42,922 nt of DNA, from positions 1 to 42,922 of IMG/VR virus record IMGVR_UViG_3300036806_000241; one strand, 5' to 3'. A program made the position numbers and the translations under genes. This DNA comes from a virus. This document shows positions 8,020-37,900 of the stretch, one piece after another. Position 1 is the stretch's first letter. Every line of letters starts with the position of its first letter. The notes under the pieces were generated by a model that saw only the letters and a program-made list of their open reading frames with translations, made no database searches and was not told the origin of the DNA.

Positions 8020-8503
8020 GGACGCTCTGGATAGTTTCGCCACCGCGCCCCTTGATCGGGTGCTGCAGCTCGTCCTCTGGAAGCTGCGACACAAGAACCC
8101 GGAGATGGCGGTCCTCATCACCGAGGGCGATATCACCGGGTTCGAGCAGTCGATGAGCTACCAGGGGGTGGTGCCCGCGATCCTGATCGAGCGCCCACAA
8201 GGCCGCCCGGCACACGCCGGTGCCCGCGGGAAGGTGGTGAGCGTGGCGCCCTTCTCGGGGGAACCCCCCCGTCCCTTCGTCATCGTCGCCGTGGTGGAGC
8301 GGGGGAAGAAGAACGCGATCCGGGCGATCGAGAACAACCAGGATGACTTCGAGCGGGGGGATCTTGCCCGGCGGATCGCGCTTGCCCGCGGGAAGGCTGC
8401 CACGCTCGCGCAGCAGGTGAGGAACGCCGCCGCAAGCGGGGATTTCACCTCCGGGACCCTGGAGGACGCCGCTGAAGCGCTCGAAGTGCTCGCCAAAGCA
8501 TGA
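7988..8503 (+). CDS. Hypothetical phage protein
   Basis: 171 residues, with an ATG located 32 bases inside the acetyltransferase gene. The N-terminus is basic (MPKSERKPRHKDALD), followed by mixed alpha/beta segments (ILIERPQGRPAHAG, VIVAVVERGKKN) and a helical C-terminal half. No known motif is visible. Its stop overlaps the pseI start. Confidence 0.6.
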   Translation: MPKSERKPRHKDALDSFATAPLDRVLQLVLWKLRHKNPEMAVLITEGDITGFEQSMSYQGVVPAILIERPQGRPAHAGARGKVVSVAPFSGEPPRPFVIVAVVERGKKNAIRAIENNQDDFERGDLARRIALARGKAATLAQQVRNAAASGDFTSGTLEDAAEALEVLAKA

Positions 8504-9522
8504 GCGAATACCCGTTCTTCGTCGCGGAGATGGGGGCGAACCACAACCATGATCTTGATCTGGCGCTCGCGATTGCCGATGCGGCCAAGTCCGTCGGCGC
8601 GGATGCCCTGAAGCTGCAGACCTACACCCCCGAGTGCATGGTGGTGCGCGAGCAGAAGGCGCTTGCGACCGGCCCCTGGGCGGGGATAAGCCTGTGGGAG
8701 CTCTACGAGCGCGCCGCGCTCCCCTGGTCCTGGCACCAGAGGATCTTCGAGCACTGTCACTCGATCGGGCTCCCCTGCTTCAGCAGCCCCTTCTCGATCG
8801 AAGCGGTGGATCTCCTTGAGCGCCTGGGTTGCCCGATGTACAAGATCGCGAGCTTCGAGATCCTCGACCTCGAGCTGATCGAGCGCTGCGCCAAGACCGG
8901 ACAGCCCCTCGTCATTTCAACGGGCATGGCGACGATGTTGGAGATCGGGGATGCGATCGAGGCCGCGCGCGCCGGCGGGTGCGTGGGGGAGCAGCTGACG
9001 CTCCTCAAGTGCACGAGCTCTTACCCCGCTCCCGCCTCCGAGGCGAACCTGCGCACGATGCCAGACCTTGGCAAGTTCGGCTGCCGGGTCGGGTTGTCTG
9101 ACCACACCCGAGGCGTGGGGGTCGCCGTGGCGGCGGCGCTCGGCGGCGCCACCATGATCGAGCGGCATTTCACCCTGGGGGTGGCCGATAAAGGCCCCGA
9201 TGTGCCCTTTTCGAGCTCCCCGCACCAGTTCAGGCAGATGATCGAGGCGGTGCACGACGCGATCGACGCCCAGGGCTCGGGGCGCTTGGGGCCCACGGCC
9301 TCGGAAATGCCCATGCTTGAGCTGCGGCGCACCTTGCGGGCCCTGCGGGGGATCAGGGAGGGCGAAGTCTTCACCCGGCAGAACATCGGTGCGCGGCGCC
9401 CCGCTGGAGGCCTGCCACCGCGCTTCATCTCCCGCTTCCTGGGAGGCTTTGCCCCCCACGCCATCCAGGCTGGGGAAGCCCTGACCGAGGACACTGTTCC
9501 ACGTGAAACCGGCTCGAGGTGA
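8500..9522 (+). CDS. pseI: PseI/NeuB-type nonulosonic acid synthase (pseudaminic acid synthase)
   Basis: 340 residues comprising the NeuB TIM barrel (about 1-270) and a C-terminal SAF/antifreeze-like domain (about 280-340). The enzyme condenses a 6-carbon amino sugar with phosphoenolpyruvate. Seen motifs are VAEMGANHNHDLDLAL, GADALKLQTYTPE, FSSPFSIEAVDLLE, YKIASFEI, VISTGMAT, LLKCTSSYPAP, GLSDHTRG and MIERHFTL; the last two hold the metal-binding histidines of NeuB enzymes. LWELYERAALPW is closer to PseI (LYxxAxTPW) than to NeuB. Length is standard and no key residue is missing. The gene overlaps the small terminase start by 20 bases, so sugar synthesis and packaging genes share a transcript. 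Confidence 0.92.
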   Translation: MSEYPFFVAEMGANHNHDLDLALAIADAAKSVGADALKLQTYTPECMVVREQKALATGPWAGISLWELYERAALPWSWHQRIFEHCHSIGLPCFSSPFSIEAVDLLERLGCPMYKIASFEILDLELIERCAKTGQPLVISTGMATMLEIGDAIEAARAGGCVGEQLTLLKCTSSYPAPASEANLRTMPDLGKFGCRVGLSDHTRGVGVAVAAALGGATMIERHFTLGVADKGPDVPFSSSPHQFRQMIEAVHDAIDAQGSGRLGPTASEMPMLELRRTLRALRGIREGEVFTRQNIGARRPAGGLPPRFISRFLGGFAPHAIQAGEALTEDTVPRETGSR

Positions 9523-10111
9523 GCGCCGTTACGCGGTCTTCGCGCAGGAATACGCGAAGCACCACAACGCCACCCGGGCGGCGATCACCGCCGGCTACAG
9601 CCCCAAGAGCGCAAACTCCCAGGGCAGTAGGTTGTTGACCCATGCCAAGGTTTTGGAGATTCTGAGCGCGCTCGAAGCCAAAGCGCTCGAGCAAGCCGGG
9701 ATCGATACCGTAGCGCTTCTGCGGGAATCCAAGCGGATCGGGTTCTCCGATCCGCGCAAGCTCTTCCACCCCGATGGCCGCCCCAAGCAGCCCCACGAGT
9801 TGGATGACGATACGGCGGCCGCGGTCTGCGGGATCGAACGCATGGTCGAATACAGGGAGTCCGTCGGGAAGAACGGCAAGCCGCGCAAGCAGCGCGTCGT
9901 CACCTTCCGGTATAAGCTCCTTGACAAGAACCCGACCCACGAGCGCCTCTTCAAGCACAAGGGCCTCTTCAAGCAGGAGGTGCTGCCGCCCCTGCCCGGG
10001 GATATCGAGGTGGAGGAGGTGAGCGCTCTGGATCTCGCGCGGCGTATCGCCTTCATCCTCGTCGTCGGGGCACGACACAAGAAAGAGGCCGCTTCGGGCA
10101 AACGCAAATGA
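9503..10111 (+). CDS. terS: Terminase small subunit
   Basis: 202 residues of Terminase_2 type. The N-terminal helix-turn-helix region (RRYAVFAQEYAKHHNATRAA, ITAGYSPKSANSQGSRLL) is the usual DNA-recognition part that binds the packaging site. The C-terminal part is basic and low in recognisable motifs. The GTG start lies within the end of pseI. The large subunit gene is not adjacent but begins at 14530, an unusual separation of over 4 kb. Confidence 0.85.
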   Translation: MKPARGERRYAVFAQEYAKHHNATRAAITAGYSPKSANSQGSRLLTHAKVLEILSALEAKALEQAGIDTVALLRESKRIGFSDPRKLFHPDGRPKQPHELDDDTAAAVCGIERMVEYRESVGKNGKPRKQRVVTFRYKLLDKNPTHERLFKHKGLFKQEVLPPLPGDIEVEEVSALDLARRIAFILVVGARHKKEAASGKRK

Positions 10112-10124
10112 AGGGGATTCTCCG

Positions 10125-10406
10125 GTGGCGAGGGCAAGCAGGAAGAACCGGGAGATCGTGCGCATCCTCGCGAAGCGAACGAGCAGAGGGCGCCTCGTGG
10201 CAACGCTGCCCTGCCCGCTGACCACCCGGCAGCGCACGCTGTGCCAACTCCTCGCTGATGGCCGCCGGCTGGTCGACCTGGGCAAGGAGCTCGGAGCATC
10301 CAAGACCTTGCTCACGCAACGGGCCGATGCAATCCGCGATCTCCTGGATGCGAAGACCACCACGCACGCCGTCGTGATCGCGGTGAGAAACGGCTGGGTG
10401 AGGTGA
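10125..10406 (+). CDS. LuxR-type HTH DNA-binding protein
   Basis: 93 residues. The C-terminal 62 residues match the GerE/LuxR helix-turn-helix: LTTRQRTLCQLLADGRRLVD, LGKELGASKTLLTQRADAI, RDLLDAKTTTHAV. The first 28 residues are very basic. It has no receiver or ligand domain, so it would act as a stand-alone transcription regulator or DNA-binding accessory protein. GTG start; the stop overlaps the methyltransferase start by one or four bases depending on the chosen start. Confidence 0.7.
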   Translation: MARASRKNREIVRILAKRTSRGRLVATLPCPLTTRQRTLCQLLADGRRLVDLGKELGASKTLLTQRADAIRDLLDAKTTTHAVVIAVRNGWVR

Positions 10407-11197
10407 TGAGGCCATTGGCGATCGATTTGTTCTGCGGCCTCGGCGGTTGGACCGAAGGCCTGCTCAAGGAGGGCTGGTGGGTGATCGGCTTCGACATCGA
10501 GCGCCACGATTACGGGACAGGAGGCTATCCCGCGCAGCTCGTGCTGCAGGATGTGTTGACGCTCCACGGCTCGCAGTTCAAAGATGCGGACCTGATCGTC
10601 GCGAGTCCGCCCTGCCAGGCCTACAGCTACCGCGCTATGCCCTGGTCGCGCGCTAAGGCTTTGCCGCCTCCTGATAATTCGCTGTTCGAGGCGTGCTTTC
10701 GGATTCAGCGCGAAGCTATCGAAGTTGCGGGACATTTCATCCCGCTCGTGGTCGAGAACGTGCGCGGGGCGCAGAAGTGGGTCGGGCGAGCGCGCTGGAA
10801 CTTCGGGAGTTTCTATCTGTGGGGCGATGTGCCGGCGCTGATGCCGATGACACGCAAGGCTGTCAAGGTCGCGACAATGGGGCAAGGCTGGTATCCGCCA
10901 GACCATCCGAAGCACATTCCAGGTCTCGGCTTTAATACGCATGCTGCCCGAGCGATCAAGAACAATGGCGGCTCGTGGTTCAACGTCGCACACAACACCA
11001 CGAGCGGCAAGGGGCAGAATCCGGATGGTCGGAAGCTCAAGGATAGCGACGGCTACGAGCGCGACCATCCTGTGGCCTTTGGTTGGAAGAAACCGCGCAC
11101 ATCCAGCAAGAGCCTCGCCCGCAAAGCCGCCTCAGCAATGATCGCCAAGATTCCGCTAGTGCTCTCCCAGCATATCGCTCGCACGTTCAAGCCCTGA
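10406..11197 (+). CDS. Cytosine-C5 DNA methyltransferase-like protein
   Basis: 263 residues. The SAM-binding motif AIDLFCGLGGWTEGL is close to the N-terminus. IVASPPCQAYSY holds the catalytic PCQ cysteine, and PLVVENVRGAQKWVG holds the ENV motif. The target recognition region is short, and the C-terminal SLARKAASAMIAKIPLVLSQHIA fits the closing motif of the family when read in two parts. ATG at 10406 was preferred; a GTG at 10403 is equally placed. It probably protects phage DNA from host restriction; that is the usual role in phages, not shown here. No restriction enzyme gene is adjacent. Confidence 0.85.
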   Translation: MRPLAIDLFCGLGGWTEGLLKEGWWVIGFDIERHDYGTGGYPAQLVLQDVLTLHGSQFKDADLIVASPPCQAYSYRAMPWSRAKALPPPDNSLFEACFRIQREAIEVAGHFIPLVVENVRGAQKWVGRARWNFGSFYLWGDVPALMPMTRKAVKVATMGQGWYPPDHPKHIPGLGFNTHAARAIKNNGGSWFNVAHNTTSGKGQNPDGRKLKDSDGYERDHPVAFGWKKPRTSSKSLARKAASAMIAKIPLVLSQHIARTFKP

Positions 11198-22935: not shown

Positions 22936-25788
22936 GTGGGCCTGCAAAACGCGGTCATCCAAGCGTTCAACCGGGGCCTGGTGAGCCGGCTTGGTCTCGC
23001 GCGCACCGACATCAAGCGCACGGCCATGGCGGCCGAGGTGATGACCAATTGGATCGCTCGGGTGCTCGGGAGCATGATGCTGCGCCCGGGCACCCAATTC
23101 CTCGGGGATACGAACGCCGATCTGCAGGCGAAATACCTCGACTTCGTCTTTCGCAACAACGACACCGCGCTGATCGAGCTCACCAACCTGATCCTGCGGA
23201 TCTGGGTGAACGACGCCCTGGTGACCCGGGTTGCGGTGGGCAGCCAGACCGTGAACGGCACCTTCGCCGCGAGCTTGGCCAGCTGGACGAGCCTGGATGC
23301 CGGTGGGGCGGTATCGGACTGGGTCAACGCAGGGGATGTGCGCTTCATCGGTGATGGGGTGAATTCCGCCGGCCGCGAGCAGCAGGTGGTCGTTGCGGCC
23401 GGGGACATCGGCAAGGAGCACGCGCTTCGCATCATCGTGAGCGGCAGCGTCGCTGGCCAAACCACCTCTGCGGCGTCACTCACCCTGCGCGTGGGCTCGG
23501 CGAGCGGCCAGGATGATTACGTGAACCGCACGGATCTCTCCACCGGCACGCATTCGATCGCCTTTACTCCGGCTGGCAATTTCTGGGTACGCTTCACCAA
23601 CACGAGCCTGAACCAGGTGCACCTGGCATCCTGCGTCGTCGAGGGCGCAGGCGTGATGACGCTTCCCACCCCCTGGGCGAGCGCGGATCTGGGAAATGTC
23701 CGCAAGGACCAGTCTCTCGATCTTGTCTTCGTGGGCTGTGATGGACACCAGCAAAAGACGATCGAGCGCCGCGGGGTCCACTCCTGGTCGATCACGACGT
23801 ATGCCCCGAACGATGGTCCCTTCCTCACCGAGAACGTGAGCGGGATCACGATCACGCCAGGCGCGCTGGGACCCGGTCAGGTGCAGCTCAACGCGAGCGA
23901 ATCGATCTTCAACAATGGACACCTGGGGGCGCTTTTCCGAGTCACCTCGATCGGGCAGTCGGTGATCCGCGGTATCGCTGCGGCGAACGTATTCACCAAT
24001 TCGATCAGGATCTCCGGGGTGAGTGACGGCTTGTTCGGTCAGATACCCCTCATCGCTTTTCCGGGCCAACCATTGCAGCAATTTTTCGGGACCGGAGGCC
24101 CTCCCCCCACGGGACCACGCCGGTTCATCTATACCCTGTCTGGCACTTTTACGGGGATCGTGACATTGCAGCAATCGATGGACAACGCGACCTGGACGGA
24201 TTTCTTGCAGCACGCAGGACCCGTCAACGTCATCTCTTTCGCCCTGAGCATCGATGACGGGCTGAGCAATCAGATCATCTACTACCGCGCCGGTTTCAAG
24301 GCGGGGGATTACACCTCGGGCCAGGTCAATATCACCTTGCAGTACGCGAATGGCAGCCGCGTGGGCGTCGGTCGGGTCATCGATGTCCTTTCCGATACGG
24401 CGGTGCTCGTCGATGCAATCCAGGCCTTCGGGGGAACCACCGCCACCAACATCTGGGCCGAGGGCTCCTGGTCAACCTTCCGCGGGTTCCCTACAAGCGT
24501 CAGCCTGCACCAAGGACGATTGTGGTGGTTCGGCCAGGGGAAGGAGTTCGGTTCGGTATCCGATGGTTTCTTCAGCTTCGATGACACCGTGATCGGTGAT
24601 GCGGGGCCGATTCAGCGCTCGATCGGCTCAGGGCCCCTGGACAACATCAACTGGGCGCTCTCCTTGCAGCGCCTCCTGCTCGGGGCCGATCTGTCGGAAT
24701 ACGAGACCATTACCTCGAGCTTGGATGAGCCGATCACCCCGACCAACTTCACGCTTCGCCCGGCCTCAACGCACGGCTCAGCCAAGGTGCAGGCGGTGAA
24801 GGTGGATGCGACCGCGGTGTTCGCGCGGCGCGCCGGCACCCGGGTGCTGCAGCTCGCGATCGATCCCTACATCGGGGATTACGCGCCGCAGGACCTCACG
24901 GCGCTCGTGCCCGAGCTCTTCGACAGCCGCTTGGCGCCGGTGGTGGACATCAGCATCCAGAGGATGGCCGTGCAGCGCCTGCCCGACACCCGGGTGCATT
25001 TCGTGCGCGCCGACGGCGCGGTGGGGATCCTGATCTTCGACCGGGTCGAGAACGTGATCTGCTGGGTGCTCCTTGAAACCCCTGGCGCCGGGGGGTTCGT
25101 TGAGGACGTCGTCGTGCTCCCCAACACACCCGAGGATGCCGTGTATTACTGCGTGCGCCGCACGATCGGAGGAGTCACGAAGCGCTTCCTCGAGCGCTGG
25201 GCGCTGGAAGCCGAGGGACGGGGCGCCGCGATCACCAAGCTCTCGGATGCCTGCGTGCTCTACAACGGAGCGCCCGCCACCTCGATCGCGGTGGCCCACC
25301 TGATCGGGCAATCGGTCACCGTCTGGGCCGACGGGAAGGACGTCGGCACCGATGCGAACGGCAACCAGATCTACACCGTGGACAACACCGGGCACATCAC
25401 CCTTGCCCTCGCCGCCTCGATCGTCGTGGTGGGCCTTCCCTACGCCGCGCAGTGGCAAAGCGCGAAGCTCGCCTATGGCGCCCAGATGGGCACGGCGCTC
25501 ACCCAGCCCAAGCGTATTCCGGGCCTGGGGGTGATCATGGCCGACACTCATGCGCAAGGGCTGAAATACGGGAAGGACTTCACCAACCTCGATCCCCTGC
25601 CCACGACCGAGGACATCGTGCCCGTGGATCCTGACAAGATCTGGGACGAATACGACAAGCCGGTATTCGCCTTCGATGGGGACTGGGACACCGACGCCCG
25701 GGTGTGCCTGCAGGCGGCCTCACCGCGCTGTTGCACGCTCCTCGGGCTCGTGATCCCGGTCGACACCGAGGAGACCGTGGGGTCATGA
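22936..25788 (+). CDS. Large tail tube/nozzle-type structural protein
   Basis: 950 residues from a GTG. The N-terminus (NAVIQAFNRGLVSRLGLART, then MRPGTQFLG-like LRPGTQFLGDTNADLQAKY) and the block GSWSTFRGFPTSVSLHQGRL with WWFGQGKEFGSVSDGF are characteristic of tail tubular B/nozzle proteins of podoviruses. A central insertion of about 250 residues rich in Thr, Ser and Gly may be a carbohydrate-binding-like module (SWTSLDAGGAVSDW region). It forms the distal tail tube and probably contacts the host surface. It directly follows the adaptor and overlaps the next gene. Confidence 0.8.
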   Translation: MGLQNAVIQAFNRGLVSRLGLARTDIKRTAMAAEVMTNWIARVLGSMMLRPGTQFLGDTNADLQAKYLDFVFRNNDTALIELTNLILRIWVNDALVTRVAVGSQTVNGTFAASLASWTSLDAGGAVSDWVNAGDVRFIGDGVNSAGREQQVVVAAGDIGKEHALRIIVSGSVAGQTTSAASLTLRVGSASGQDDYVNRTDLSTGTHSIAFTPAGNFWVRFTNTSLNQVHLASCVVEGAGVMTLPTPWASADLGNVRKDQSLDLVFVGCDGHQQKTIERRGVHSWSITTYAPNDGPFLTENVSGITITPGALGPGQVQLNASESIFNNGHLGALFRVTSIGQSVIRGIAAANVFTNSIRISGVSDGLFGQIPLIAFPGQPLQQFFGTGGPPPTGPRRFIYTLSGTFTGIVTLQQSMDNATWTDFLQHAGPVNVISFALSIDDGLSNQIIYYRAGFKAGDYTSGQVNITLQYANGSRVGVGRVIDVLSDTAVLVDAIQAFGGTTATNIWAEGSWSTFRGFPTSVSLHQGRLWWFGQGKEFGSVSDGFFSFDDTVIGDAGPIQRSIGSGPLDNINWALSLQRLLLGADLSEYETITSSLDEPITPTNFTLRPASTHGSAKVQAVKVDATAVFARRAGTRVLQLAIDPYIGDYAPQDLTALVPELFDSRLAPVVDISIQRMAVQRLPDTRVHFVRADGAVGILIFDRVENVICWVLLETPGAGGFVEDVVVLPNTPEDAVYYCVRRTIGGVTKRFLERWALEAEGRGAAITKLSDACVLYNGAPATSIAVAHLIGQSVTVWADGKDVGTDANGNQIYTVDNTGHITLALAASIVVVGLPYAAQWQSAKLAYGAQMGTALTQPKRIPGLGVIMADTHAQGLKYGKDFTNLDPLPTTEDIVPVDPDKIWDEYDKPVFAFDGDWDTDARVCLQAASPRCCTLLGLVIPVDTEETVGS

Positions 25789-26135
25789 AACCGCAGATCA
25801 TTCCCGGGAACCGCGCGCTCCTTGATCAACTCGGGGTCGCGTTCCCGCACGGCGCGCGCACGCTGATCGGCCTTGTCGGTGAGCGGCCGGTGGGTGCGGT
25901 GGGCGTGTACCCGGAGCGCGGGCGGCTCATCCTCTTCGCGCACCTCACACCTGAAGCTCGGGTCTACAAGCGCTACCTCCTCCTCGCCGGCCGGCGCATC
26001 CTCGCTTCGATCGCGCACATCCGCGCTCCGGTTGAAGCGCGCGCGAACCCCCACATCGCTGGCTCGGCGCGGCTCCTCGAGCACCTGGGGTTTCGCAAGA
26101 TGTGGGGCGACGTCTTCCGGTGGACCGATGGGTGA
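25785..26135 (+). CDS. GNAT-like small protein in the tail operon
   Basis: 116 residues; the ATG overlaps the nozzle gene stop by four bases. The end VEARANPHIAGSARLLEHLG with FRKMWGDVFRWTDG is the late strand-helix-strand of GNAT acyltransferases, while GLVGERPVGAVGVYPERG supplies the early strands. It is shorter than a full GNAT domain, and the classic acetyl-CoA loop is not obvious. Homologous small genes occur at this place in related phages. Catalytic activity is doubtful. Confidence 0.6.
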   Translation: MKPQIIPGNRALLDQLGVAFPHGARTLIGLVGERPVGAVGVYPERGRLILFAHLTPEARVYKRYLLLAGRRILASIAHIRAPVEARANPHIAGSARLLEHLGFRKMWGDVFRWTDG

Positions 26136-26697
26136 CCAGGCCGGTGGCGTCGGCATCGGAGGGCTGGCCCTGCAGCTTGCCGGGGTGGCGAATGCCGAGC
26201 GCTCCTCGCGCCAGGCGGCGGCGACCCGGATGGACGCGGCGAAGTTCGAGGCCGACCAGGCGCTGCAGGAGGCAGGGCAAAGCGTCGCGGTCGCGCAGCG
26301 CGGCGCCTTTGCGATCGATCGGCAAACGCAGCTCCTGCAGTCCCGGGCGCTCGCGCTCGCCGCAGCGAGCGGCGGCGGGGCAAGTGATCCCACGGTGATG
26401 AACATCATCGGGAACCTGGGCGGAGAGGGATCCTACCGCAAGGCGCAGGCGCTCTACGAGGGCGAGGCGCAGGCGCGCGCGCTGCGTCTGAAAGCCACCT
26501 CCGACATCGTGAGCGGGGAGATCGGGGCGCAGGCGAGCCTGGCCGAAGGGCGCTCCACCATGATCACGGGCTCGGCGAGCGCGTTCAAGAGTGCTTCGAG
26601 CTTGTACGCCAAGTACGGCTACAAGAGCCCCCCGACGGGTGGCGCTGACCTGAGCTACATCGAGCGCGATGACGCGGCTCCGAGCGGATATCGCTGA
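26128..26697 (+). CDS. Internal virion protein (gp14-like)
   Basis: 189 residues, starting inside the end of the preceding gene. After a Gly-rich start it is almost entirely helical and Ala-rich (DAAKFEADQALQEAGQSVAV, RKAQALYEGEAQARALRLKA), as expected for the smallest ejected core protein of podoviruses. It precedes the two larger internal virion genes in the usual order. Role in ejection is inferred from position and composition. Confidence 0.65.
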   Translation: MGDQAGGVGIGGLALQLAGVANAERSSRQAAATRMDAAKFEADQALQEAGQSVAVAQRGAFAIDRQTQLLQSRALALAAASGGGASDPTVMNIIGNLGGEGSYRKAQALYEGEAQARALRLKATSDIVSGEIGAQASLAEGRSTMITGSASAFKSASSLYAKYGYKSPPTGGADLSYIERDDAAPSGYR

Positions 26698-28592
26698 TGG
26701 CTGAGCTCCCCAACCCCCTGAGCGCATTCGGGCCGCTTCAACCCCCGCAGTTGCCCCGTGGGCAGGCGAACGTGAACGTGCGCCTGGTCGACAAGATCCA
26801 GGAGCCCGCGCGCTCCGAGATCGGCGCGGGTGGCGTGATGGAGCAGGCGGCAAACGAGCTCGACACGATCAACACGCTCAAGGCCGAGGACGCCTTCAAC
26901 CAGCTGCGCCAGAAGCAGCTCGAGCTCACCACCGGCCAGGATGGTTTCGCGAACGTGCGCGGGGGTGATGCGATCGACCCCAAGTTCTACCCCGGGGCGG
27001 TGTCGCGCTTTGCCGATGCGCAGCGCGAGGTGGGCGATGGCCTGACGAACGATCGCCAGCGCTTCCTCTTCGATCAGCGCTCGAAGGTGGCCGAGCTGCA
27101 GTACAAGGAGCAGCTCCTCGCGCACGTGCACCAGGAGAACAATACCTTCCAAGCGCAAACGAACCAGGCGGTGATCTCGACCGAAGTGCAAAGCATCGCC
27201 GCAAACTATCGGGATCCGAAGGCGATCGGCCTCTCGAACGTGCGCATCGCCGCGGCGATCGACCGCGAGTCCGAGCGCCTGGGCTGGTCGAAAGAGGAAA
27301 AATCACTCGCTACCCAGAAGGCAACCGATGCCGCCTGGAGCGGCCGGCTTTCCGCGCAGCTCCTCGATGACCCGGTGGGGGCGCTGAAAAGCTTCAACGA
27401 GGCCGGCCGTGACGAGATGAGTAAGCCCCTTGCCGAGCAGATGTTCTTGAAATTGAAGTCCGCCGCGCTCCCCGTGGATGCGAAGAACGCGGCGACGGAC
27501 ATCATCAACGGCAAGGGCATGCAGCACCTGACTGATCAGCTCGCCTCGGGGGGCCAGAGCGCGGTGGATCAGGCGATCGCCCAGGGCGCGGCCGCCGCGC
27601 CAAGCGGGAGCGTGAATCCTCCCGGGCCCGGCGCCGCGGGCCTCCCGCCCAGCGGCACGAAATACGACATCAAGGCGGGGTTCATGGGCTGGGTGCAGCA
27701 GGCGGAGGCGATCGCGCAGAAACAGCATCCCGATGATCCGGTCTACCGAGACCTCCTCGTATCGAACGTGAAGAGCCACATGAACACGCTCATCACGGCG
27801 CAGGACGGACTTGCGCGCCAGGCGCACGCTTCCCTCATGTCGGCGGCGACCCCGCAGCCGGGGAAGCCCGCGCCGCTCGTCCTCGATCAGCTCCTCACGA
27901 GCCCCCAGCTTCGCCAGGCGTGGCTCGATGACCCGCAGGGGCAGCGCGGGGTGCTCGCGCTCCTCGATCACAACGCCCGGCAAGCGAACGGCCTTCCGAT
28001 CCGCACCAACCCCCTCACCTTCGAGAGCGTCTGGAACCGAATCAACCTGTCCGATGACAACCCGAACAAGATCCGCCAGCCCGGGCAGCTTGCGCCCTAT
28101 CTCGCGCACGGGATCAACCGCACGGACTATGACTGGTTCAAGCAGCGGATCGACGAGAACCAGACCCCTGAGGGGCAGCGGCTCTCGGAGGTGAGAAAGA
28201 TGTTCCTCGAGCAGGCGAAGGCGCAGTTCGACTCGAGCACGATGATGTTCCACGATGCGAAGGGGAAGAGCGACAACTACCGCTTCTGGTACTACGCGAC
28301 TGACCAGGAGCGCCAGGCGCGCGCCGGCAACAAGGATCCCTTCCAGCTCTACAACCCGCAGAGCCCGGAATATCTCGGGAATAAGATTCCCGCCTTCAAG
28401 CGCACCCTGGAGCAGCGCATCCAGGATATGACCGATGACATCTCGGCCGGGCAAAGCGCGGCGGTGACGCCGACCCAGCCCGCGCCGCAGGCTGCCGCGG
28501 CGCCAGGCGCCGCGGGCGCGATCACGGCGACCAACCCGAAAACGGGCGAGCGCAGGATCCACCAGGACGGAAAATGGCAGCCGCTCAAATAG
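26697..28592 (+). CDS. Internal virion protein (gp15-like)
   Basis: 631 residues, largely helical and rich in Gln, Ala and charged residues, with EDAFNQLRQKQLELTTGQDG and VRGGDAIDPKFYPG near the N-terminus and a Pro/Ala/Gly-rich C-terminal end. The size, helix content and location between the small internal protein and the giant polyvalent protein fit a gp15-type ejection protein forming part of the trans-envelope channel. The ATG overlaps the previous stop; the C-terminus overlaps the next gene by 19 bases. No lytic transglycosylase motif is seen. Confidence 0.7.
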   Translation: MAELPNPLSAFGPLQPPQLPRGQANVNVRLVDKIQEPARSEIGAGGVMEQAANELDTINTLKAEDAFNQLRQKQLELTTGQDGFANVRGGDAIDPKFYPGAVSRFADAQREVGDGLTNDRQRFLFDQRSKVAELQYKEQLLAHVHQENNTFQAQTNQAVISTEVQSIAANYRDPKAIGLSNVRIAAAIDRESERLGWSKEEKSLATQKATDAAWSGRLSAQLLDDPVGALKSFNEAGRDEMSKPLAEQMFLKLKSAALPVDAKNAATDIINGKGMQHLTDQLASGGQSAVDQAIAQGAAAAPSGSVNPPGPGAAGLPPSGTKYDIKAGFMGWVQQAEAIAQKQHPDDPVYRDLLVSNVKSHMNTLITAQDGLARQAHASLMSAATPQPGKPAPLVLDQLLTSPQLRQAWLDDPQGQRGVLALLDHNARQANGLPIRTNPLTFESVWNRINLSDDNPNKIRQPGQLAPYLAHGINRTDYDWFKQRIDENQTPEGQRLSEVRKMFLEQAKAQFDSSTMMFHDAKGKSDNYRFWYYATDQERQARAGNKDPFQLYNPQSPEYLGNKIPAFKRTLEQRIQDMTDDISAGQSAAVTPTQPAPQAAAAPGAAGAITATNPKTGERRIHQDGKWQPLK

Positions 28593-31500
28593 CCCCGCCC
28601 GAAGGCTTCGAGCTGGATGGCGCGCAGCCCCAGCCGGGGGCACCCCGCGCACCGCAGGCGCCTGCGGGGTTCCAGATCGACCAGCCCGCTCCGGACCCGG
28701 TGCTTGGAGCGATCAACCAATCGCGCATCGCCGCGCCCATTGAAGCCGGGCTCAATCTCGTGACCGGCCTGGGCTTGGGGATGCCCGTATATCTCGCGCG
28801 CGGTCTGTACGGGGCGCTCACGGGCGAGGAGGACCGCCAGGAGAAGGCGACCGAGGCCGCGCACGCGGTGACCTACGAACCGAGGGGGGAGAAGGGGAAA
28901 AGGCTCTCCGCGCTCATCAACCTGCCCTTCGAGAAGCTGACCGAGAAGTCGACTGAGATCGGCCACAAGGTCACCGATCTGACCGGAAGCCCGGTGCTGG
29001 GGGCGATCACCGAGGGTGCGATCCAGACCCTGACCCCGTTGGGGGTGGCGAAAGGCGCTGGCACTCTTGCGGCTCTCGGGCGAAGCGCACCCACTCCCGC
29101 GGCTTTCGAGTCGGCCGCGGTCGCGATCGAGGGGCATGCGCCGCGTCCTGGGCAGACCCCGGCGATGGCGGGGAAGCTCGAGCGCATCTACGAGGCGACC
29201 GGCAAGAAGCCCTCGGAGGTGATCGCCGCGGCCTTGCAGGACTCCAACACCCTCGCCGACCTCGTTGCCGACAACCGGGAGATCCCGGCGGGGCTTGAAA
29301 AGGGCAAAGCCAAGGAAACCGGGGCGCCAGCGGCTGAACCGGGGGCGCCAGCGGCTGAACCGGAGGCGGGCGGGGTGAAGGAGGCAGCGGCGGGCGAGAC
29401 GCTCCCAGGGCGTCCTACGCACGCTGGTGAGGAAATCCGCATGCCACCTGCGGATGCCCCGATCCCGGCAACCAACCTGCCCCGCGCGACCGACATCACC
29501 CTGGTGCGCCATGGGGAGACCGCGCTCAACAACCAGAATCTCGTGCGCGGCTGGACCGACATCCCCTTGAACGAGATGGGGGCGAAGCAGGCGGGGGAGC
29601 TCGGGGAGCAGCTGAAAGACAAGGGGATCGACACGATCGTCACCTCGGACCTCGTGCGCGCGAGCGCAACCGCCCGGGAGATCGGCAAGGCCTCCGGAGC
29701 GCCGGTGATCGAGGACCCGGCGTTTCGCCCCTGGAATGTGGGAGAGTACGCCGGCAAGCCGAACGAGGCGGTCGCTCGGGTGCTCGAGGACTACGCGAGC
29801 AACCGGCCAAGCGAACCGCTACCGGGCGGTGAGAGTTTCAACCAATTCCGCGAGCGCTACCTCTCGGGGGTCGAGCGGATCGCCGCCGAGCACCCCGGGG
29901 AGCGCATCGCGCTCGTCAGCCACCACCGCGGGGACCGGCTGTTTGCCGCCTGGCAGAAGGCCGCAATGCCTGTGGATCATTCTGTGGATATGTCGACCTT
30001 TCTCGACTGGCAGGGGGGGATCAAGACCGGCACGGCGGCCGACATGGAGCCCGTCCCGGTACGCGCCGGGCCGCAGGGGAGCGCCATGGCGGCGGCGATC
30101 GGCGAGCGCATGAAAGCGAAGGGAGCGCAGGAGCCCGAGGTGAAGGGCGCGGTTGCGGCCTGGGAGAAGTGGTTCGCCGCGGCGAGTGAGCGCTACGGGA
30201 TACCCCCTTCGGAGATCCTCTCGACGCGCGGCCTGGAAGAGTTGCGCAAGGACCCGGATCTGCCCCCTGAGTTGCGCTCGGTGATCGAGCGCGCGGGAAG
30301 TGATCCGGCCGCCGCCGCCTTCGAGCGCGATGCGCAAGAGCAGATCGCCTTCCTCAACCGAGAAGCGAAGTCCCGCGGCTTCGCGGATATCGATCAGCTC
30401 ACAAAGAAGGACCCCGAGGAGTTCCAGAAGCTCGCGAGCGCCTACCGCGCCGGGCGCGCGAAATCCGAGGAACCGCTCCCGATCCCCTACGCGCAGAGGC
30501 TGCGCCCCGAGCAGCGCGAGGTCGAAACCCGAGCGCGCGAGCAGGTGCAAGGGGATCTCGAGGGCCAGATCAAGGCCTACGAGAAGCTCCCCGACTCCGA
30601 TGGCGGCAAGATCATCAACACGGACATCGCGCGCGAGCTCTTCCCGGACTATCGGCAATCGCGCTCGATCCACTCGCCCTCGGTGCACGAGCCGGCAAGC
30701 GCCCTCGTGAAGGAGATGTTCCTGCGCAAGGTCTCCGAGGCCGATCCGAACGGGCTCAACATGGTGACCTTCACCGCAGGCGGCACGGGCGCGGGCAAGA
30801 CGAGCGGCATCAACGCCGTGCCGCTTGTTTCCAACGTGGTCGAGGCCTCCCAGCTCGTCTACGACACGAACATGGCGAATTTCAAGAGCGCCAAGGCGAA
30901 GATCGACCTCGCCCTGGAGCACGGAAAGCAGGCGAACATCATCTTCGTGGGCGCCGATCCCCTGGAGGCCCTGGATCGGGCGCTGAAGCGCGCGATGCGC
31001 ACCGGGCGCACCGTGCCCCTGGAAGAACATGCGAAAACACACGAAGGCTCCGCGCGAGCGCTCGAGCAGCTGATGCAGGAATACAAGGGCGATGACCGGG
31101 TACAATTCATCATCATCGACAACGGGGCGGGTGCCAAGGGCGAGATCCGCCTGGTCGACCCCGCCGATGCGCGCGAGTACCTGCATTCCCTTGATTTCAG
31201 CAATCTGCGCGAACGATTGAAAGGACGACTCGATGCCGCGTTCGAACAAGGCAAAATCACCGAAGCAATTTATCGAGGAACTGAAGCCCCTGTCGGCGAA
31301 GGAGAGGGGACAGCGCCTGGGGCAGGAGGTGGTGAAGAACCTCCAGCAGGTGGCCAACCAGGAGAGCGAGGAGCCGCAGGCGCCCCCCGAGGGCGTTACG
31401 CTCCACTAAGGGAGCGCGGCGGCCCGCCTCGGCCGCCAGAGATTCCCCCGCCTTCACCCGCCCAGGCGGCGGTGCTCGAGCGCATCTCCAAGGAGCCCGG

Positions 31501-34138
31501 CAAACCCGCGGGCTACACCTGGGAAGCGTTCTACGCGGACGTGAAGGATGACCTCTACCCGATCAAGCGGCTGGTCAACGCGCTGCGCTCGGGGGAGGAT
31601 CTGGGCACGGCGGAGGATCCCTACAAGCTCGCGCGCCTCACGCGCGGCGCCTACGGCAAGGCCGAGCAATTCCTCGAGTATTCCCCCTTCGACTTCAAGA
31701 CCTACAAGAACGTCGGCAAATCGATGCGCGACATCATCGATCCCGTGAAGAACGACCTGGATGGTCTTCGCGCCTACGCGGTGAGCCGCCGCTCCGTTGA
31801 GCTCGACGGTCGCGGGATCCAAACCGGCGTGCCTCTGGATGAGGCGAAGCAGGTGATCGCCGAGGGCGGCAAGTACGCTCAAGTGCTAAAAGAGCTGCAG
31901 GCCTACCAGGACCACCTGGTCGCGTATCTCAAGGACAGCGGCGTCCTGTCCGAGGAGAGCGTGAAGGCGATGCGCGAGGCGAACAAGGACTACGTGCCCT
32001 TCTTCCGGCTGATGGATGACGCCGAGGGAGCGGCGAGCGCCGGCGCCGGATTGAAGACTCACCAGCCGATCAAACGCATCAAAGGGAGCGAGCGCCTGAT
32101 CATCGATCCTCTGGAATCGATCGTGAAGAACACCTACCTGTACACGACGCTCGCCGAGCGCAACGCCGTGGGACGCTCGTTGGTCGAGCTCGTTGAGCGC
32201 TCAGGACGCGATGACCTCGTGCGGCGTATCCCCGGGCCGGTGAAGCCGATCAAAGTCCAGGATGCCGAGATCCGAAAGTTCCTCGAGGAAAACGGGATCG
32301 ACGCGCCCGAGGAGTTCGAGCAGGCGATGACCATCTTTCGCCGCGGCAACCTGACGCCGGCGGAGGATCAGATCGTCGTCTTTCGCGAGGGCAAGCGTGA
32401 GCTCTACCAGGTTCCCGAGGAAGTGGCGAGCGCCTTCAAGGCGACCGATCGGGAGAGCGCCGGATGGTTGACGAGGGTTCTTGCGATCCCGGCGAAGATG
32501 CTGCGGGTCGGAGCGACGCTCTCCCCTGATTTCATCTCGAGGAACCCGGTGCGCGATCAGTTCAGCGCTTACGTGCTCTCCAAGAGCGGCTACGTGCCGG
32601 TGCTGGACATGGTGCGCGGCGCCGTGTCGATCGCGAAGCACGATCAGGACTTCCAGAACTGGTTGAAGTCGGGGGGTGCGAACGCGGCGATGGTGAGCCT
32701 CGATCGGGACTACGTGCAGCAGGAGCTCGCGCGCCGCTCGGGGGATCTGGATTTCACCACGCGCGCCTGGAACGTGATCAAAAACCCCCTTGAGCCCCTG
32801 CGCATTGCCTCCGAGCTCATGGAGAACGCGACGCGCTTGGGCGAGTTCAAGAAAGCGGCAGGAGGCGAGAGCACGAAAGAAGCGATCCAGTCGGCCGGGT
32901 TCGAGGCGCGCGAGGTGACGATCGACTTCGCGCGGATCGGGGCGAAGACGCGCGCGATGAACCTCATCACGGCCTTCTGGAATGCGAACCTGGAGGGCAT
33001 CGATCGCACGGTGCGCTCCTTCAAGGACCGGCCGTTTCAGACGACCGCCAAGATGGCCGTTTCGATCACGCTCCCCTCGGTGCTCCTGTGGTGGTCGAAC
33101 CACGATGACGGTCGCTATGGCGACCTCCCCAACTGGGAGAAGGACCTCTTCTGGATCGTGATGACCGATCACGTATCAAAGGAGCGCTGGGCGGGGATGA
33201 GCACCCAGAAGAAGCTCGCCTTCCAGGCGCAAACGCACATCTACCGGATCCCCAAGCCCTTCGAGCTCGGGGTGATCTTCGGGAGCGGCCCTGAGCGGCT
33301 GCTCGATGCCTTCTACGACAAGCACCCCGACGCCTTCAAGGACTTCACCAACTCGATGGCGAACACGATGGGGATCAATCTTGTGCCCACCGCCGCGGCG
33401 CCGGTGCTGGGACAGATCACGAACTGGAACTTCTTCACTGACCGGCCGCTCATTCCCGCCTCCCAGGAGCGCCTGCTACCCGAGTACCAGTATTCGAGCT
33501 ACACCACCCAGACGACGCGGGCGCTGGGGCACCTGGTGGGAAGCATCCCGGGGCTGCACGACAAGTCGATGGCCTCCCCCCAGGTGATCGACAACTACAT
33601 CCGCAGCTGGACGGGGACCCTCGGGAATTACACGCTGCAGATCGCCGATGCGGCGTTGAGGAAGACGGGCGTCCTCCCCGACCCCATCCGGCCCGCGAAG
33701 AGCTTGGAGGACCTGCCGGTGCTGCGCGGGTTCATGGTGCGCTTTCCTTCGGGCCAGGCGCAATCGATCCAGGACTTCTACGACAGCTACCAGGCCTCCA
33801 AGCGCGTCACCGACACGATCCAGACTCTGGCGCGCCAGGGGGACAGCGCCGCGGCGCTACGCGAGATGCAACTCGATCCCCAGCGTCTCGCGCGCCTGGA
33901 TTCGATTCACCAGGCGCTCTCGCGCGCCCAGGAAGCGATCCAGCTCGTGGACCGCAACCCGAAGATCGGCGAGCAGGAGAAGCGCCAGCTGATCGACACG
34001 ATGTACTACCAGATGATGATGATGAGCCGCGCCGGCAACCTCGCGCTCGCGCAGATGCAAAAGGCGCTCGCCAGCAGCTCACTTGCGCGGGCCAAAGAAG
34101 GAGCACCCAATGAAAACCAACCTGCACTCGCTCGCTGA
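28574..34138 (+). CDS. Giant polyvalent virion protein: histidine phosphatase + zeta-toxin-like kinase + LPD38-type C-terminal part
   Basis: 1854 residues, the largest gene here. Residues 307-470 form a histidine phosphatase (phosphoglycerate mutase-like) domain, with R312-H313-G314 in LVRHGETALNNQNLVRGWTD and the second catalytic His in ALVSHHRGDRLF. Residues about 680-890 form a zeta-toxin-like P-loop kinase, with Walker A GGTGAGKT at 736-743, then VYDTNMANFKSAKAKIDLAL and IIFVGADPLEALDRALKRAM. A Pro/Gly-rich linker (about 905-960) leads to a long helical region. Near residues 1450-1650, FWNANLEGIDRTVRSFKDRP and WWSNHDDGRYGDLPNWEKDL match the large polyvalent protein-associated domain 38 pattern. 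Polyvalent proteins are injected with phage DNA to counter host defences. The position after internal virion proteins makes it the gp16-like ejection protein. Individual domain activities are inferred. Confidence 0.82.
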   Translation: MAAAQIAPPEGFELDGAQPQPGAPRAPQAPAGFQIDQPAPDPVLGAINQSRIAAPIEAGLNLVTGLGLGMPVYLARGLYGALTGEEDRQEKATEAAHAVTYEPRGEKGKRLSALINLPFEKLTEKSTEIGHKVTDLTGSPVLGAITEGAIQTLTPLGVAKGAGTLAALGRSAPTPAAFESAAVAIEGHAPRPGQTPAMAGKLERIYEATGKKPSEVIAAALQDSNTLADLVADNREIPAGLEKGKAKETGAPAAEPGAPAAEPEAGGVKEAAAGETLPGRPTHAGEEIRMPPADAPIPATNLPRATDITLVRHGETALNNQNLVRGWTDIPLNEMGAKQAGELGEQLKDKGIDTIVTSDLVRASATAREIGKASGAPVIEDPAFRPWNVGEYAGKPNEAVARVLEDYASNRPSEPLPGGESFNQFRERYLSGVERIAAEHPGERIALVSHHRGDRLFAAWQKAAMPVDHSVDMSTFLDWQGGIKTGTAADMEPVPVRAGPQGSAMAAAIGERMKAKGAQEPEVKGAVAAWEKWFAAASERYGIPPSEILSTRGLEELRKDPDLPPELRSVIERAGSDPAAAAFERDAQEQIAFLNREAKSRGFADIDQLTKKDPEEFQKLASAYRAGRAKSEEPLPIPYAQRLRPEQREVETRAREQVQGDLEGQIKAYEKLPDSDGGKIINTDIARELFPDYRQSRSIHSPSVHEPASALVKEMFLRKVSEADPNGLNMVTFTAGGTGAGKTSGINAVPLVSNVVEASQLVYDTNMANFKSAKAKIDLALEHGKQANIIFVGADPLEALDRALKRAMRTGRTVPLEEHAKTHEGSARALEQLMQEYKGDDRVQFIIIDNGAGAKGEIRLVDPADAREYLHSLDFSNLRERLKGRLDAAFEQGKITEAIYRGTEAPVGEGEGTAPGAGGGEEPPAGGQPGERGAAGAPRGRYAPLRERGGPPRPPEIPPPSPAQAAVLERISKEPGKPAGYTWEAFYADVKDDLYPIKRLVNALRSGEDLGTAEDPYKLARLTRGAYGKAEQFLEYSPFDFKTYKNVGKSMRDIIDPVKNDLDGLRAYAVSRRSVELDGRGIQTGVPLDEAKQVIAEGGKYAQVLKELQAYQDHLVAYLKDSGVLSEESVKAMREANKDYVPFFRLMDDAEGAASAGAGLKTHQPIKRIKGSERLIIDPLESIVKNTYLYTTLAERNAVGRSLVELVERSGRDDLVRRIPGPVKPIKVQDAEIRKFLEENGIDAPEEFEQAMTIFRRGNLTPAEDQIVVFREGKRELYQVPEEVASAFKATDRESAGWLTRVLAIPAKMLRVGATLSPDFISRNPVRDQFSAYVLSKSGYVPVLDMVRGAVSIAKHDQDFQNWLKSGGANAAMVSLDRDYVQQELARRSGDLDFTTRAWNVIKNPLEPLRIASELMENATRLGEFKKAAGGESTKEAIQSAGFEAREVTIDFARIGAKTRAMNLITAFWNANLEGIDRTVRSFKDRPFQTTAKMAVSITLPSVLLWWSNHDDGRYGDLPNWEKDLFWIVMTDHVSKERWAGMSTQKKLAFQAQTHIYRIPKPFELGVIFGSGPERLLDAFYDKHPDAFKDFTNSMANTMGINLVPTAAAPVLGQITNWNFFTDRPLIPASQERLLPEYQYSSYTTQTTRALGHLVGSIPGLHDKSMASPQVIDNYIRSWTGTLGNYTLQIADAALRKTGVLPDPIRPAKSLEDLPVLRGFMVRFPSGQAQSIQDFYDSYQASKRVTDTIQTLARQGDSAAALREMQLDPQRLARLDSIHQALSRAQEAIQLVDRNPKIGEQEKRQLIDTMYYQMMMMSRAGNLALAQMQKALASSSLARAKEGAPNENQPALAR
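29321..29362 (+). repeat. Two exact 21-bp tandem copies in the polyvalent gene linker
   Basis: The 21-base unit coding for GAPAAEP occurs twice in direct succession, in frame, in the linker before the phosphatase domain. This is a simple in-frame expansion of a flexible linker. Confidence 0.9.
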
Positions 34139-35490: not shown

Positions 35491-36668
35491 CCTACACCTA
35501 TCCGAATATCACCGAGAACCCGATCTCGGACGGGGGCAAGTGGAAGAACCAGGGTGCGGCGACGGGCGGCTGGACGCTGGTGCAGTCCAACGCCGGGACG
35601 CTCTTTGGCACGAACACGGTGGGAGGAACGGCCGACAGCTACGCCTATCTTGACCCGAGCGTGGGTCTCGGGAACGACTATGTGATGACCGGAGTTGTGC
35701 ACCGCGACGCGAGCGTGGTCGACGGTGGCACCGACCTCGAGATTGAGCTCCACATCCGGATGACGGACGATGCGACCCACGTCCACACCTACGAAGAGGA
35801 CTTGTCGAACACGATCGGGGGGAGCGGCTACCAGTTTGTTCGCTGGACAGGCACGAACGGGAGTTTCACTGACCTGAGTTCCCAGGTGACCGATAGCGGT
35901 CTTGCGCACGGCACTCCGCAGGACAACGATTCCTACACCTTGCAGGTGAAGGGGCTCGCCGTCATCGCGAAGGTGAACGGCGCGACCATGTTCACCTACA
36001 CGCTGGGCTCGGGAACGGGGGATGGCTCACCGCTTACGACGGGCAATCCTGGAGTCGGGTTCGATCTCTCCGCGGGCGCAACCAATGGGCTGCTCGCTTG
36101 GAAATCCTGGAGCGTGAGTCCTCTGGCGAGCGTATTCACGAGCGCAGGCACCTCGACCGCCAAGGCAACGGCCGCGGCGCTGAAGAGCGCCGACGCATCG
36201 AGCACCGCCGCCGCGGTGGCGACCGGGGTCGGCGCCTCGCTCAAGTCGGCTACCCTCGCGAGTGCCGGTGTGGCAGTTGCGACGGGGATCGGGTCCTCGC
36301 TCAAGGCGGCCGATATGGCGAGCACGGGCACCTCGACTGCGGTTGCAGTCGGGACTTCCCAGATCTCAACCGGGTCGGCCATGTCAAGCCCCGGGATGGC
36401 CACGGGCACGGCCGTGAGCGCGGCTCTCAAGAGCGCGGACATGTCTGGGGCGGGTGTATCGAGCGCCACCGCGGAGAGTACCTCGCCACAGCCTCCGGTC
36501 GTTCAGCCTGCGCAGATCCAGCAGATTTCCATGGGCGCAGGGGGCAGCGCGAGCAAGGCGCGGCACAAGCGCCGTCGGCGCGAGCGCGAGGAAGAAGAGA
36601 TGCTGCTCGTCGCGAGTGTCCTGGCGCAGTTCCTTTCGCACAAGCACCATAGAGGAGCACAACAATGA
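35487..36668 (+). CDS. Putative tail fibre/lectin-like protein with Ala/Ser repeats
   Basis: 393 residues from a GTG. Residues 1-210 look like a concanavalin/LamG-type beta sandwich (YVMTGVVHRDASVVDGG, IELHIRMTDDATHVHTY, YTLQVKGLAVIAKVNGATMF, GNPGVGFDLSAG), a fold often used for glycan binding. Residues about 217-330 are imperfect repeats of about 20 residues. The C-terminus is strongly basic (KARHKRRRREREEEE) followed by a short hydrophobic helix. A receptor-binding or capsid-surface role is possible, since such Ala/Ser/Gly repeats are typical of fibrous parts. The assignment is by fold pattern only. Confidence 0.6.
   Translation: MTYTYPNITENPISDGGKWKNQGAATGGWTLVQSNAGTLFGTNTVGGTADSYAYLDPSVGLGNDYVMTGVVHRDASVVDGGTDLEIELHIRMTDDATHVHTYEEDLSNTIGGSGYQFVRWTGTNGSFTDLSSQVTDSGLAHGTPQDNDSYTLQVKGLAVIAKVNGATMFTYTLGSGTGDGSPLTTGNPGVGFDLSAGATNGLLAWKSWSVSPLASVFTSAGTSTAKATAAALKSADASSTAAAVATGVGASLKSATLASAGVAVATGIGSSLKAADMASTGTSTAVAVGTSQISTGSAMSSPGMATGTAVSAALKSADMSGAGVSSATAESTSPQPPVVQPAQIQQISMGAGGSASKARHKRRRREREEEEMLLVASVLAQFLSHKHHRGAQQ
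36135..36480 (+). repeat. Imperfect ~20-residue coding repeats
   Basis: At least five degenerate units sharing the pattern S-A-G-x(3)-A-x(2)-G-x-x-A-x-LK-S-A-D-M, for example ending in ALKSADAS, SLKSATLA, SLKAADMA and ALKSADMS. The DNA period is about 60-63 bases. Divergence between units shows that the expansion is old. Confidence 0.8.
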
Positions 36669-37900
36669 GCTCAGTCAGCGAAGACCGCCAGGCGGCTTTC
36701 TCACCTGGCCTCGCGATCAAGCAAGCCTGCCGGCTCGCGAGCACGGCGAATATCGCCTTTGCGGCGGGCGCCCCGAATGGCCTCTCGGTGGTCGACGGGG
36801 TGCAGACGATCGAAGGCGATCGCGTGCTCCTCAAGAACCAGGTCGATCAGACCCAGAACGGGATCTGGAGCGCTTCCAGCGGTGCTTGGACGCGCACGCC
36901 AGACTTCGATGGTATCCGCGACGTCGCCGGGGGCACCCTGACGATGATTCTCGCGGGATCCCAGGCGCAGCAGCTCTTCGCGGTGATGACCACGGGCACG
37001 ATCACCCCAGGCACGACCGCGATCGCCTTCGCTGTTCTCACCAGCTCGGGGATATTGCTCAACCCGGCAACGCAGGGCGAATTGCTCTTCGGTGGTCCTC
37101 CCAACAGCATCGCCCAAGACGCGGCTCTTTTCTGGGACAACACGAACAAGCGCCTGGGGGTGGGTAATGCGGCGCCCACTGTGGCGCTGGACGTCACGGG
37201 CACGGTCAAAGCGTCAACGAGCGTGCAGAGCCAGTTCTATGATACGAGTGGCAGCGCAGGCGCCATCGGGGCGCAAGGCAACATCTACTGGAGGATACAT
37301 TCGGGGCAGGTAGGTAACTTCAAACCTGCCAATGACAACACCCAATTTATGGGTGACCCGGCCTTCCGCATCCAGGCCGTCTTTACCCCCATCGTCGACT
37401 CCGGTACGACCGGATCACTTTCGCTCGACACGAACAACGGCACGACGCAGCTTGAGGTGCTTCATGTCGCTTCGGCAAATGATCGAATCACCATTGCTGG
37501 GGCCTCCGGAGGCGCCAACCCAACGCTCGCGGTGAAGCTCGCGAGTCTCCTGGCGATCACTCCGAGCGTCGTGATCGCAGGGAACTCCTTGCAGGTTGGG
37601 CCGAATCCATCGGGGCAGTCGGGAGTAAATACTGCGTACAACACGGGGTACTCGAGCAGGAACAATGCGGGCAACAACGACTTAACCCTGATCAAGAATA
37701 CGACGATCAATTCCGTGGTGGATATCATTTCCATCGCCGCCGCCAACGGAGTGGTGCTCTCGGCTCGATCTGGTGCCGGAGCACCAACGACCTCAGACCT
37801 AACTGCCGGGAGGTTCACCGTTTGGCGCGACACCTCGGGGGCGAACACGAAGCTCTACTACAACAACGCCGGATCGATTCAAAGTGTGGCACTCACGTAA
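36665..37900 (+). CDS. Tail fibre protein
   Basis: 411 residues overlapping the previous gene by four bases. The N-terminal 130 residues contain KQACRLASTANIAFA, SVVDGVQTIEGDRVLLKNQ and VDQTQNGIWSASSGAWTRTP, a module found in many phage fibre proteins. A middle segment (ALFWDNTNKRLGVGNAAPTV, ALDVTGTVKAS) is the repeat type that often precedes fibre tips. The C-terminal part is Asn/Gly/Thr-rich and ends in RFTVWRDTSGANTKLYYNNA. It lacks an S74 chaperone domain of its own, which makes the separate chaperone-type gene at 12157-12840 noteworthy. Host receptor binding is inferred. Confidence 0.7.
   Translation: MSSVSEDRQAAFSPGLAIKQACRLASTANIAFAAGAPNGLSVVDGVQTIEGDRVLLKNQVDQTQNGIWSASSGAWTRTPDFDGIRDVAGGTLTMILAGSQAQQLFAVMTTGTITPGTTAIAFAVLTSSGILLNPATQGELLFGGPPNSIAQDAALFWDNTNKRLGVGNAAPTVALDVTGTVKASTSVQSQFYDTSGSAGAIGAQGNIYWRIHSGQVGNFKPANDNTQFMGDPAFRIQAVFTPIVDSGTTGSLSLDTNNGTTQLEVLHVASANDRITIAGASGGANPTLAVKLASLLAITPSVVIAGNSLQVGPNPSGQSGVNTAYNTGYSSRNNAGNNDLTLIKNTTINSVVDIISIAAANGVVLSARSGAGAPTTSDLTAGRFTVWRDTSGANTKLYYNNAGSIQSVALT

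Follow-up and report, generated by a model that had tools for sequence, protein, structure and literature searches.

A single open frame in the virus contig IMGVR_UViG_3300036806_000241 (ATG at 28574 to 34138, plus strand) encodes an 1854-residue protein whose homology and synteny make it the probable inner-membrane ejection protein (gp16 type) of a podovirus of 43 kb. It has a predicted place in the virion and carries a histidine phosphatase and a zeta-like kinase as inserted cargo. The whole 42,922-nucleotide stretch analyzed (42.9 kb, 65% GC, of uncertain completeness) is referred to here as the window. Pfam recognizes His_Phos_1 at residues 308–452 (E=4e-40), Zeta_toxin at 761–844 (E=1.4e-9) and LPD38 at 1512–1716 (E=1e-38), and this association of several unrelated domains with an LPD in one phage protein is that of a polyvalent protein. 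A preliminary description made from the sequence alone had placed a kinase, a phosphatase and an LPD38-type end on one chain, and all three are recovered by Pfam. The same gene is found in a second contig, IMGVR 3300036801_000284 (L002), which is 99.4% identical at the DNA level over 17,078 bp without gaps; the two copies of the gene differ in three codons, two of them silently and the third giving T610A in a linker.

The gene occupies the gp16-type slot of podoviruses, as had been proposed, on the evidence of both homology and synteny. It follows the genes for gp14- and gp15-type internal virion proteins and precedes podophage fibre genes (Table 1), and the order around the homologue is the same in Pelagibacter phage HTVC034P and in the Manatee Spring podovirus (MW202898). 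For the gene at 26697..28592, the family is taken from PHROG and the gp15 role from position. Judging by order and family, the three consecutive genes are the gp14-gp15-gp16 ejection set. Injection of the 1854-residue protein is likely because an LPD38 carrier is combined with a gp16-type position. In T7, gp16 crosses the inner membrane, with a large part of the protein projecting into the cytoplasm (PMC8954989).

Comparison with related phages separates a carrier from its cargo. In a tblastn search with the whole protein, 90 deposited phages were matched by the C-terminal 860 residues, and the 40 matches listed are all confined to residues ~966–1828. Related loci were also collected from viral contigs and genomes (84 fetched, 63 examined); setting aside the copy of this gene on the second contig leaves 62. 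These have a median length of 1228 aa, and in 49 of the 62 the N-terminal part is at most 430 aa, which leaves no room for cargo; the enzyme-free carrier in related phages is ~1150–1250 aa long. Residues 141–264 (matched by L003, L019, L020 and L040) and 966–1830 are shared with enzyme-free homologues, and since both flanking parts occur there, residues ~265–960 are an insertion. This block of ~700 aa lies between Pro/Ala/Gly/Glu-rich linkers, and its subtraction from 1854 aa gives the usual carrier length. The nearest relative (L018) has a carrier 68% identical to that of the window, lacks both the phosphatase and the kinase, and contains a different cargo of ~1000 aa with only a 68-aa segment in common. 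Other relatives carry pyrophosphatase (InPase), ADP-ribosyltransferase (ART), methylase and helicase domains together (L028), a helicase and a methylase (L100), a VanY-like domain slightly under the cut-off (L099), a GNAT domain (L035) or an endolysin-like block (L044). On these alignments, the phosphatase and kinase are cargo that can be inserted into a carrier, and in most relatives this carrier has no enzymes. The L018 cargo (572-4684) includes a phrog_9880-like segment at 1201–1343 and no Pfam domain above the cut-off.

The kinase domain is well supported, by sequence and by structural modeling, as a member of the zeta_1 type represented by ng_zeta1 of Neisseria gonorrhoeae. The gonococcal protein is its best PDB sequence match, and an AlphaFold2 model built from six sequences (predicted local distance difference test, pLDDT, 79) has ng_zeta1 (6epg) as its best Foldseek PDB match (E=4e-14, template modeling (TM) score 0.75), followed by classical zeta, PezT, AvrRxo1 (E 5e-4) and polynucleotide kinase (3e-3). 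Two blocks of ng_zeta1 are connected in a rewired topology, with Asp56 acting as the base, Lys115 serving as the P-loop lysine, and Arg175 and Arg181 lining the site (PMC5923241). These four residues correspond to D684, K742, R806 and R812 of the window protein, where the blocks occur in the same order, the catalytic Asp (D684) preceding the P-loop (GGTGAGKT, 736–743) as in the rewired zeta_1 topology. D684, R687, K742 and R812 are invariant in phage relatives of 439 aa (marine proteins), 878 aa (L015) and 1967 aa (L145). No antitoxin family, cognate epsilon included, was found among the window genes scanned, some small open reading frames (ORFs) lying outside the scan. Because ng_zeta1 phosphorylates the 4'-OH of UDP-MurNAc and other UDP-sugars (PMC5923241), a UDP-sugar is by analogy a likely but not certain substrate of the phage kinase.

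Kinases of this type also occur apart from the LPD38 carrier. A marine viral family (L136–L144) of ~439 aa combines a hydrophobic N-terminus with a zeta_1-type kinase in which all catalytic residues are kept; the genes nearby encode DNA methylases and recombinases, and recognized virion genes are not among them. Another phage encodes the 1967-aa polyvalent protein (L145:5709-11612), which joins the same kinase type to a different, phrog_9880-like carrier. A weak zeta match in an alphaproteobacterial genome (L134) was rejected, as it has an internal stop and overlaps unrelated genes.

The phosphatase domain is a branch 1 histidine phosphatase by its R312-H313-G314 motif, second Arg (R362) and second His (H450), and N319 is also present. 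The fold is not in doubt; its model (pLDDT 94.8) matches PGM, CobC, PhoE and phosphoserine phosphatase with TM scores of 0.64–0.81. In PhoE and HFP phosphatases a Glu is the proton donor (PMC12051542), and at this position (PhoE Glu83) the window protein has Pro386, which sets it apart from the PhoE/PGM-like enzymes. The earlier statement that the signature residues of both enzymes are intact therefore stands for the RHG motif and the P-loop, both exact, and, on alignment, for the phosphatase Arg/His quartet and the four catalytic residues of the kinase; it is incomplete as regards the phosphatase donor. Pro386 lies in an RPW motif, and a peptide scan of viral contigs with this motif yielded 14 further phage histidine phosphatases, in which RGW, not itself a search term, is found in every member covering that site except L154 (RGN). 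When a profile scan was combined with RPW or RGW, 52 loci came out, three of which (L175, L191 and L192) lack an exact RPW-x-x-G motif yet all have Pro at the donor position. Pro386 is invariant in 43 of 43 distinct viral members, against Glu in 31 of 31 sampled alphaproteobacterial homologues; Arg325 (PhoE Gln22) is likewise invariant in the 43, and R312, H313, R362 and H450 are kept in 43, 43, 43 and 42 of these divergent proteins, conservation that argues for phosphatase activity. In the phylogenetic tree, which has many long branches, the viral RPW and alphaproteobacterial sets are split with 99/98 support, and the window sequence falls within the viral clade. A distinct phage clade without the usual proton donor is thus well supported by alignment and tree. 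With the usual donor gone, the enzyme presumably acts on a substrate whose leaving group is good, or uses a different donor.

A search of 50,697 deposited phage records did not turn up the RPW clade, and four RPW domains used as queries there retrieved nothing closer than 38%. Matches in deposited phages (Listeria, Enterococcus and gut phages) are short unannotated records of 25–38% identity, and plasmid matches are ordinary-looking histidine phosphatases of at most 39% identity; neither was accepted. The RPW DNA pattern had no occurrence in 181 alphaproteobacterial genomes, and 21 frames from the best profile-match loci of 240 such genomes all favored the ordinary model over the RPW model. 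A His_Phos match in a 1102-codon frame (L104) proved to be just an ordinary phosphatase of ~200 aa in a longer stop-free frame.

RPW phosphatases are recurrently associated with head genes. The portal fusions (Table 1) involve three portal families and are scattered over different parts of the tree. Among solo members with a scanned neighbor, 9 of 10 adjoin portal, head-tail adaptor or large terminase genes, and the 76 neighbors taken as a set are rich in portal, terminase and head proteins in the PHROG scan, which recognized neighboring portals that phmmer with few portal queries had missed. By these associations, RPW phosphatases are a head-module (head- or ejection-associated) family, probably acting in or from the virion. 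The co-fused nucleotide and ADP-ribose domains favor, through guilt by association, a nucleotide-type substrate for the phosphatase. The L184 and L187 fusions could be nucleotide-processing modules among phage head genes.

Taken as a whole, the protein may be a gp16-type ejection protein with an injected UDP-sugar kinase/phosphatase cargo for early host takeover, a reading to which we give an even chance. The protein would be packaged in the head and leave through the tail with its gp14/gp15-type partners, its hydrophobic parts anchoring it in the inner membrane while the cargo, located between the anchors, would be exposed to the cytoplasm as in T7 gp16. The kinase, using ATP, would then convert UDP-amino sugars of the UDP-MurNAc/UDP-GlcNAc type to phosphorylated forms, so that no new wall or envelope would be made where the phage enters; the phosphatase would dephosphorylate a host signal, either of nucleotide type or a phosphoprotein, and this would most likely be a step of early counter-defence or takeover. 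The host may in this way be disarmed or remodeled ahead of any viral gene expression. A broader proposal, put forward tentatively and with rather less than even confidence, is that RPW proteins are new phage-only enzymes delivered with the head or by ejection, which hydrolyze a phosphate with a good leaving group without the canonical donor as pre-transcription counter-defence, and which different phages have independently joined to portal, prohead and ejection proteins, in this case alongside an injected UDP-sugar kinase. Several points weigh against the UDP-sugar takeover reading. The membrane topology of the 1854-residue protein is drawn from the T7 gp16 analogy, and no virion proteomics or activity data on it or its close relatives were found in the literature. 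The UDP-MurNAc contacts K59 and N75 of ng_zeta1 are replaced by R687 and S701, and the kinase substrate may differ. Loss of the donor could mean that phosphatase chemistry is altered or lost, and portal-fused phosphatases need not be injected, since they could act within the head or in assembly.

The changed contacts also suit a rival in which the injected carrier is the same and both enzymes target nucleotides, NAD-type molecules or RNA ends instead of wall precursors, the kinase acting on a dinucleotide (compare AvrRxo1 on NAD) or an RNA end and the phosphatase finishing the products of co-delivered 2H/LigD-type phosphoesterases. RPW domains are fused elsewhere to 2H, NUDIX, ADP-ribosyltransferase and LigD 3'-phosphoesterase domains, all nucleotide or ADP-ribose enzymes, and AvrRxo1 and polynucleotide kinases come next after zeta toxins in the Foldseek list. 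However, ng_zeta1 is by far the closer match by E-value, and the fusion partners vary from phage to phage, so that a shared substrate is supported by association only. We consider this rival unlikely, though not negligible. It is improbable that the protein is made late and, without being injected, works in the cell that produces it, where it might for instance affect envelope synthesis ahead of lysis: the gene does lie within the late structural operon, and the solo zeta relatives (L136–L144, on marine contigs) lie apart from recognized virion genes, but synteny groups the carrier with internal virion proteins and the RPW phosphatase is recurrently fused to the portal, a part of the virion. 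The phosphatase, and perhaps the kinase, could instead be a structural or regulatory pseudo-enzyme for virion assembly, with the cargo serving as bulk or as a binding surface; replacement of the donor Glu by Pro in every RPW member and the fusions to portals and prohead proteases, which are assembly proteins, would fit. Pseudo-enzymes usually lose their catalytic residues, however, whereas the R312/H313/R362/H450 quartet and all four kinase residues are kept here, and proton donors are said to vary across the histidine phosphatase superfamily (PMC12051542); this explanation is quite improbable.

Table 1. Features of the window and fusions of RPW phosphatases.
Feature	Position or locus	Strand	Details
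UDP-sugar dehydratase	735-1661
DegT aminotransferase	1658-2389
NeuA-like CMP-transferase	4131-4724
Methyltransferase-like	4721-5335
N-acetyl sugar amidotransferase	5484-6599
HisF-like	6626-7330
NeuB	8500-9522
Small-terminase-like ORF (weak)	9503-10111		overlaps NeuB end
Terminase	start 14530
Portal	start 16851
Major head protein	start 20144
Tail tubular protein A	start 22284
Tail tubular protein B	22936..25788	+	phrog_376
Internal virion protein	25873..26697	+	gp14/IVP-B type by position; phrog_418
gp15-type ejection protein	26697..28592	+	631 aa; endolysin/transglycosylase-like N-terminus; phrog_10475 + phrog_1044
Large polyvalent, probable gp16-type ejection protein	28574..34138	+	1854 aa
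N-terminal carrier part	28574..29365	+	residues 1-264; hydrophobic/helical, peaks around residues 52 and 141; 141-264 shared with enzyme-free homologues
Pro/Ala/Glu-rich linker ahead of cargo	29306..29485	+	residues 245-304
His_Phos_1 domain	29495..29929	+	residues 308-452; RPW clade
R385-P386-W387 motif	29726..29734	+	defines RPW clade
Zeta_1-type kinase domain	30494..31273	+	residues 641-900; D684, R687, K742, R806, R812
P-loop GGTGAGKT	30779..30802	+	residues 736-743
Pro/Gly-rich linker behind cargo	31286..31468	+	residues 905-965
C-terminal carrier	31469..34063	+	residues 966-1830; kept among podoviruses
LPD38 (PF18857)	33107..33721	+	residues 1512-1716
Fusion: portal PF04860	L195, L191		weaker in L197
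Fusion: Mu portal PF06074	L174
Fusion: portal PF06381	L177		phosphatase at C-terminus
Fusion: XkdF protease	L168
Fusion: NUDIX + XkdF protease	L187 (4983-6959)
Fusion: 2H phosphoesterase	L205
Fusion: ART	L165		below cut-off
Fusion: LigD-type 3'-phosphoesterase	L184 (4857-7610)
Fusion: metallopeptidase	L181		weak LPD23
Fusion: zeta + LPD38	window protein

Upstream of the packaging genes, window positions 735-9522 harbor a nonulosonic-acid (legionaminic/pseudaminic/sialic type) sugar operon, which is rare in deposited phages (NeuB matches 3 records) and is probably phage-borne because the small-terminase-like ORF overlaps the end of NeuB. A C5 cytosine DNA methylase match at 10403-11197 is limited to the initial third of its Pfam model and is possibly a short or truncated methylase. 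About half of the 101 differences from the sister contig L002 lie within ~250 bp (37609-37861), at the C-terminal end (codons 337–394) of a fibre/decoration-like ORF (36665-37900), where 15 amino acids are changed as a result; L002 and the window are nearly identical in the virion proteins encoded upstream of this ORF. By this pattern, the C-terminal end looks like a switched receptor-binding tip.

Injected polyvalent proteins are known while their cargo is mostly unread, and here the enzyme block of a gp16-type protein swaps between close relatives, and a phosphatase clade absent from the deposited phage records searched recurs beside phage head genes. Small expressible domains and named residues make the delivery of a UDP-sugar kinase/phosphatase along with the DNA testable. 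Polyvalent phage proteins, the zeta-like kinases within them and LPD38 are already known (PMC5512222), zeta-like kinases being listed among the polyvalent-protein domains of conjugative elements and MuF fusions (Iyer et al. 2017, PMC5512222); the word "phosphatase" is absent from the text of that paper, and an LPD38 protein of the gp16 slot that pairs a histidine phosphatase with zeta was not found there. No description of the RPW clade, of portal-phosphatase fusions or of such a pair in one gp16-slot protein was found in the literature, and the novelty lies in the RPW phosphatase clade. Like the gp16-type proteins of T7 and P22 (PMC8954989), the window protein is a mostly helical large carrier with hydrophobic segments near both ends, encoded after gp14/gp15-type genes; unlike them, it is 1854 aa long rather than 609–1337 aa and has two cytosolic-type enzyme domains. 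The kinase resembles ng_zeta1 of the gonococcal epsilon/zeta system (PDB 6EPG/6EPH/6EPI) in fold, in its Asp-before-P-loop order and in the equivalents of D56, K115, R175 and R181, and differs in lacking the OB domain, in its changed K59 and N75 contacts and in being joined to a virion carrier. RPW phosphatases share with the PhoE/CobC type (branch 1) the fold (PhoE TM 0.76) and the catalytic Arg-His-Arg-His quartet, whereas Pro in place of the donor Glu, Arg325 in place of PhoE Gln22, a clade of their own (99/98) and fusions to phage virion proteins set them apart. Portal-linked counter-defence enzymes include the Acb1-type 2H phosphoesterase, which occurs with DUF1073 portals; the RPW fusions to portal PF06381 (L177), which is of the DUF1073 type, and to a 2H phosphoesterase (L205) are alike in portal or 2H linkage, while the RPW family and its chemistry differ.
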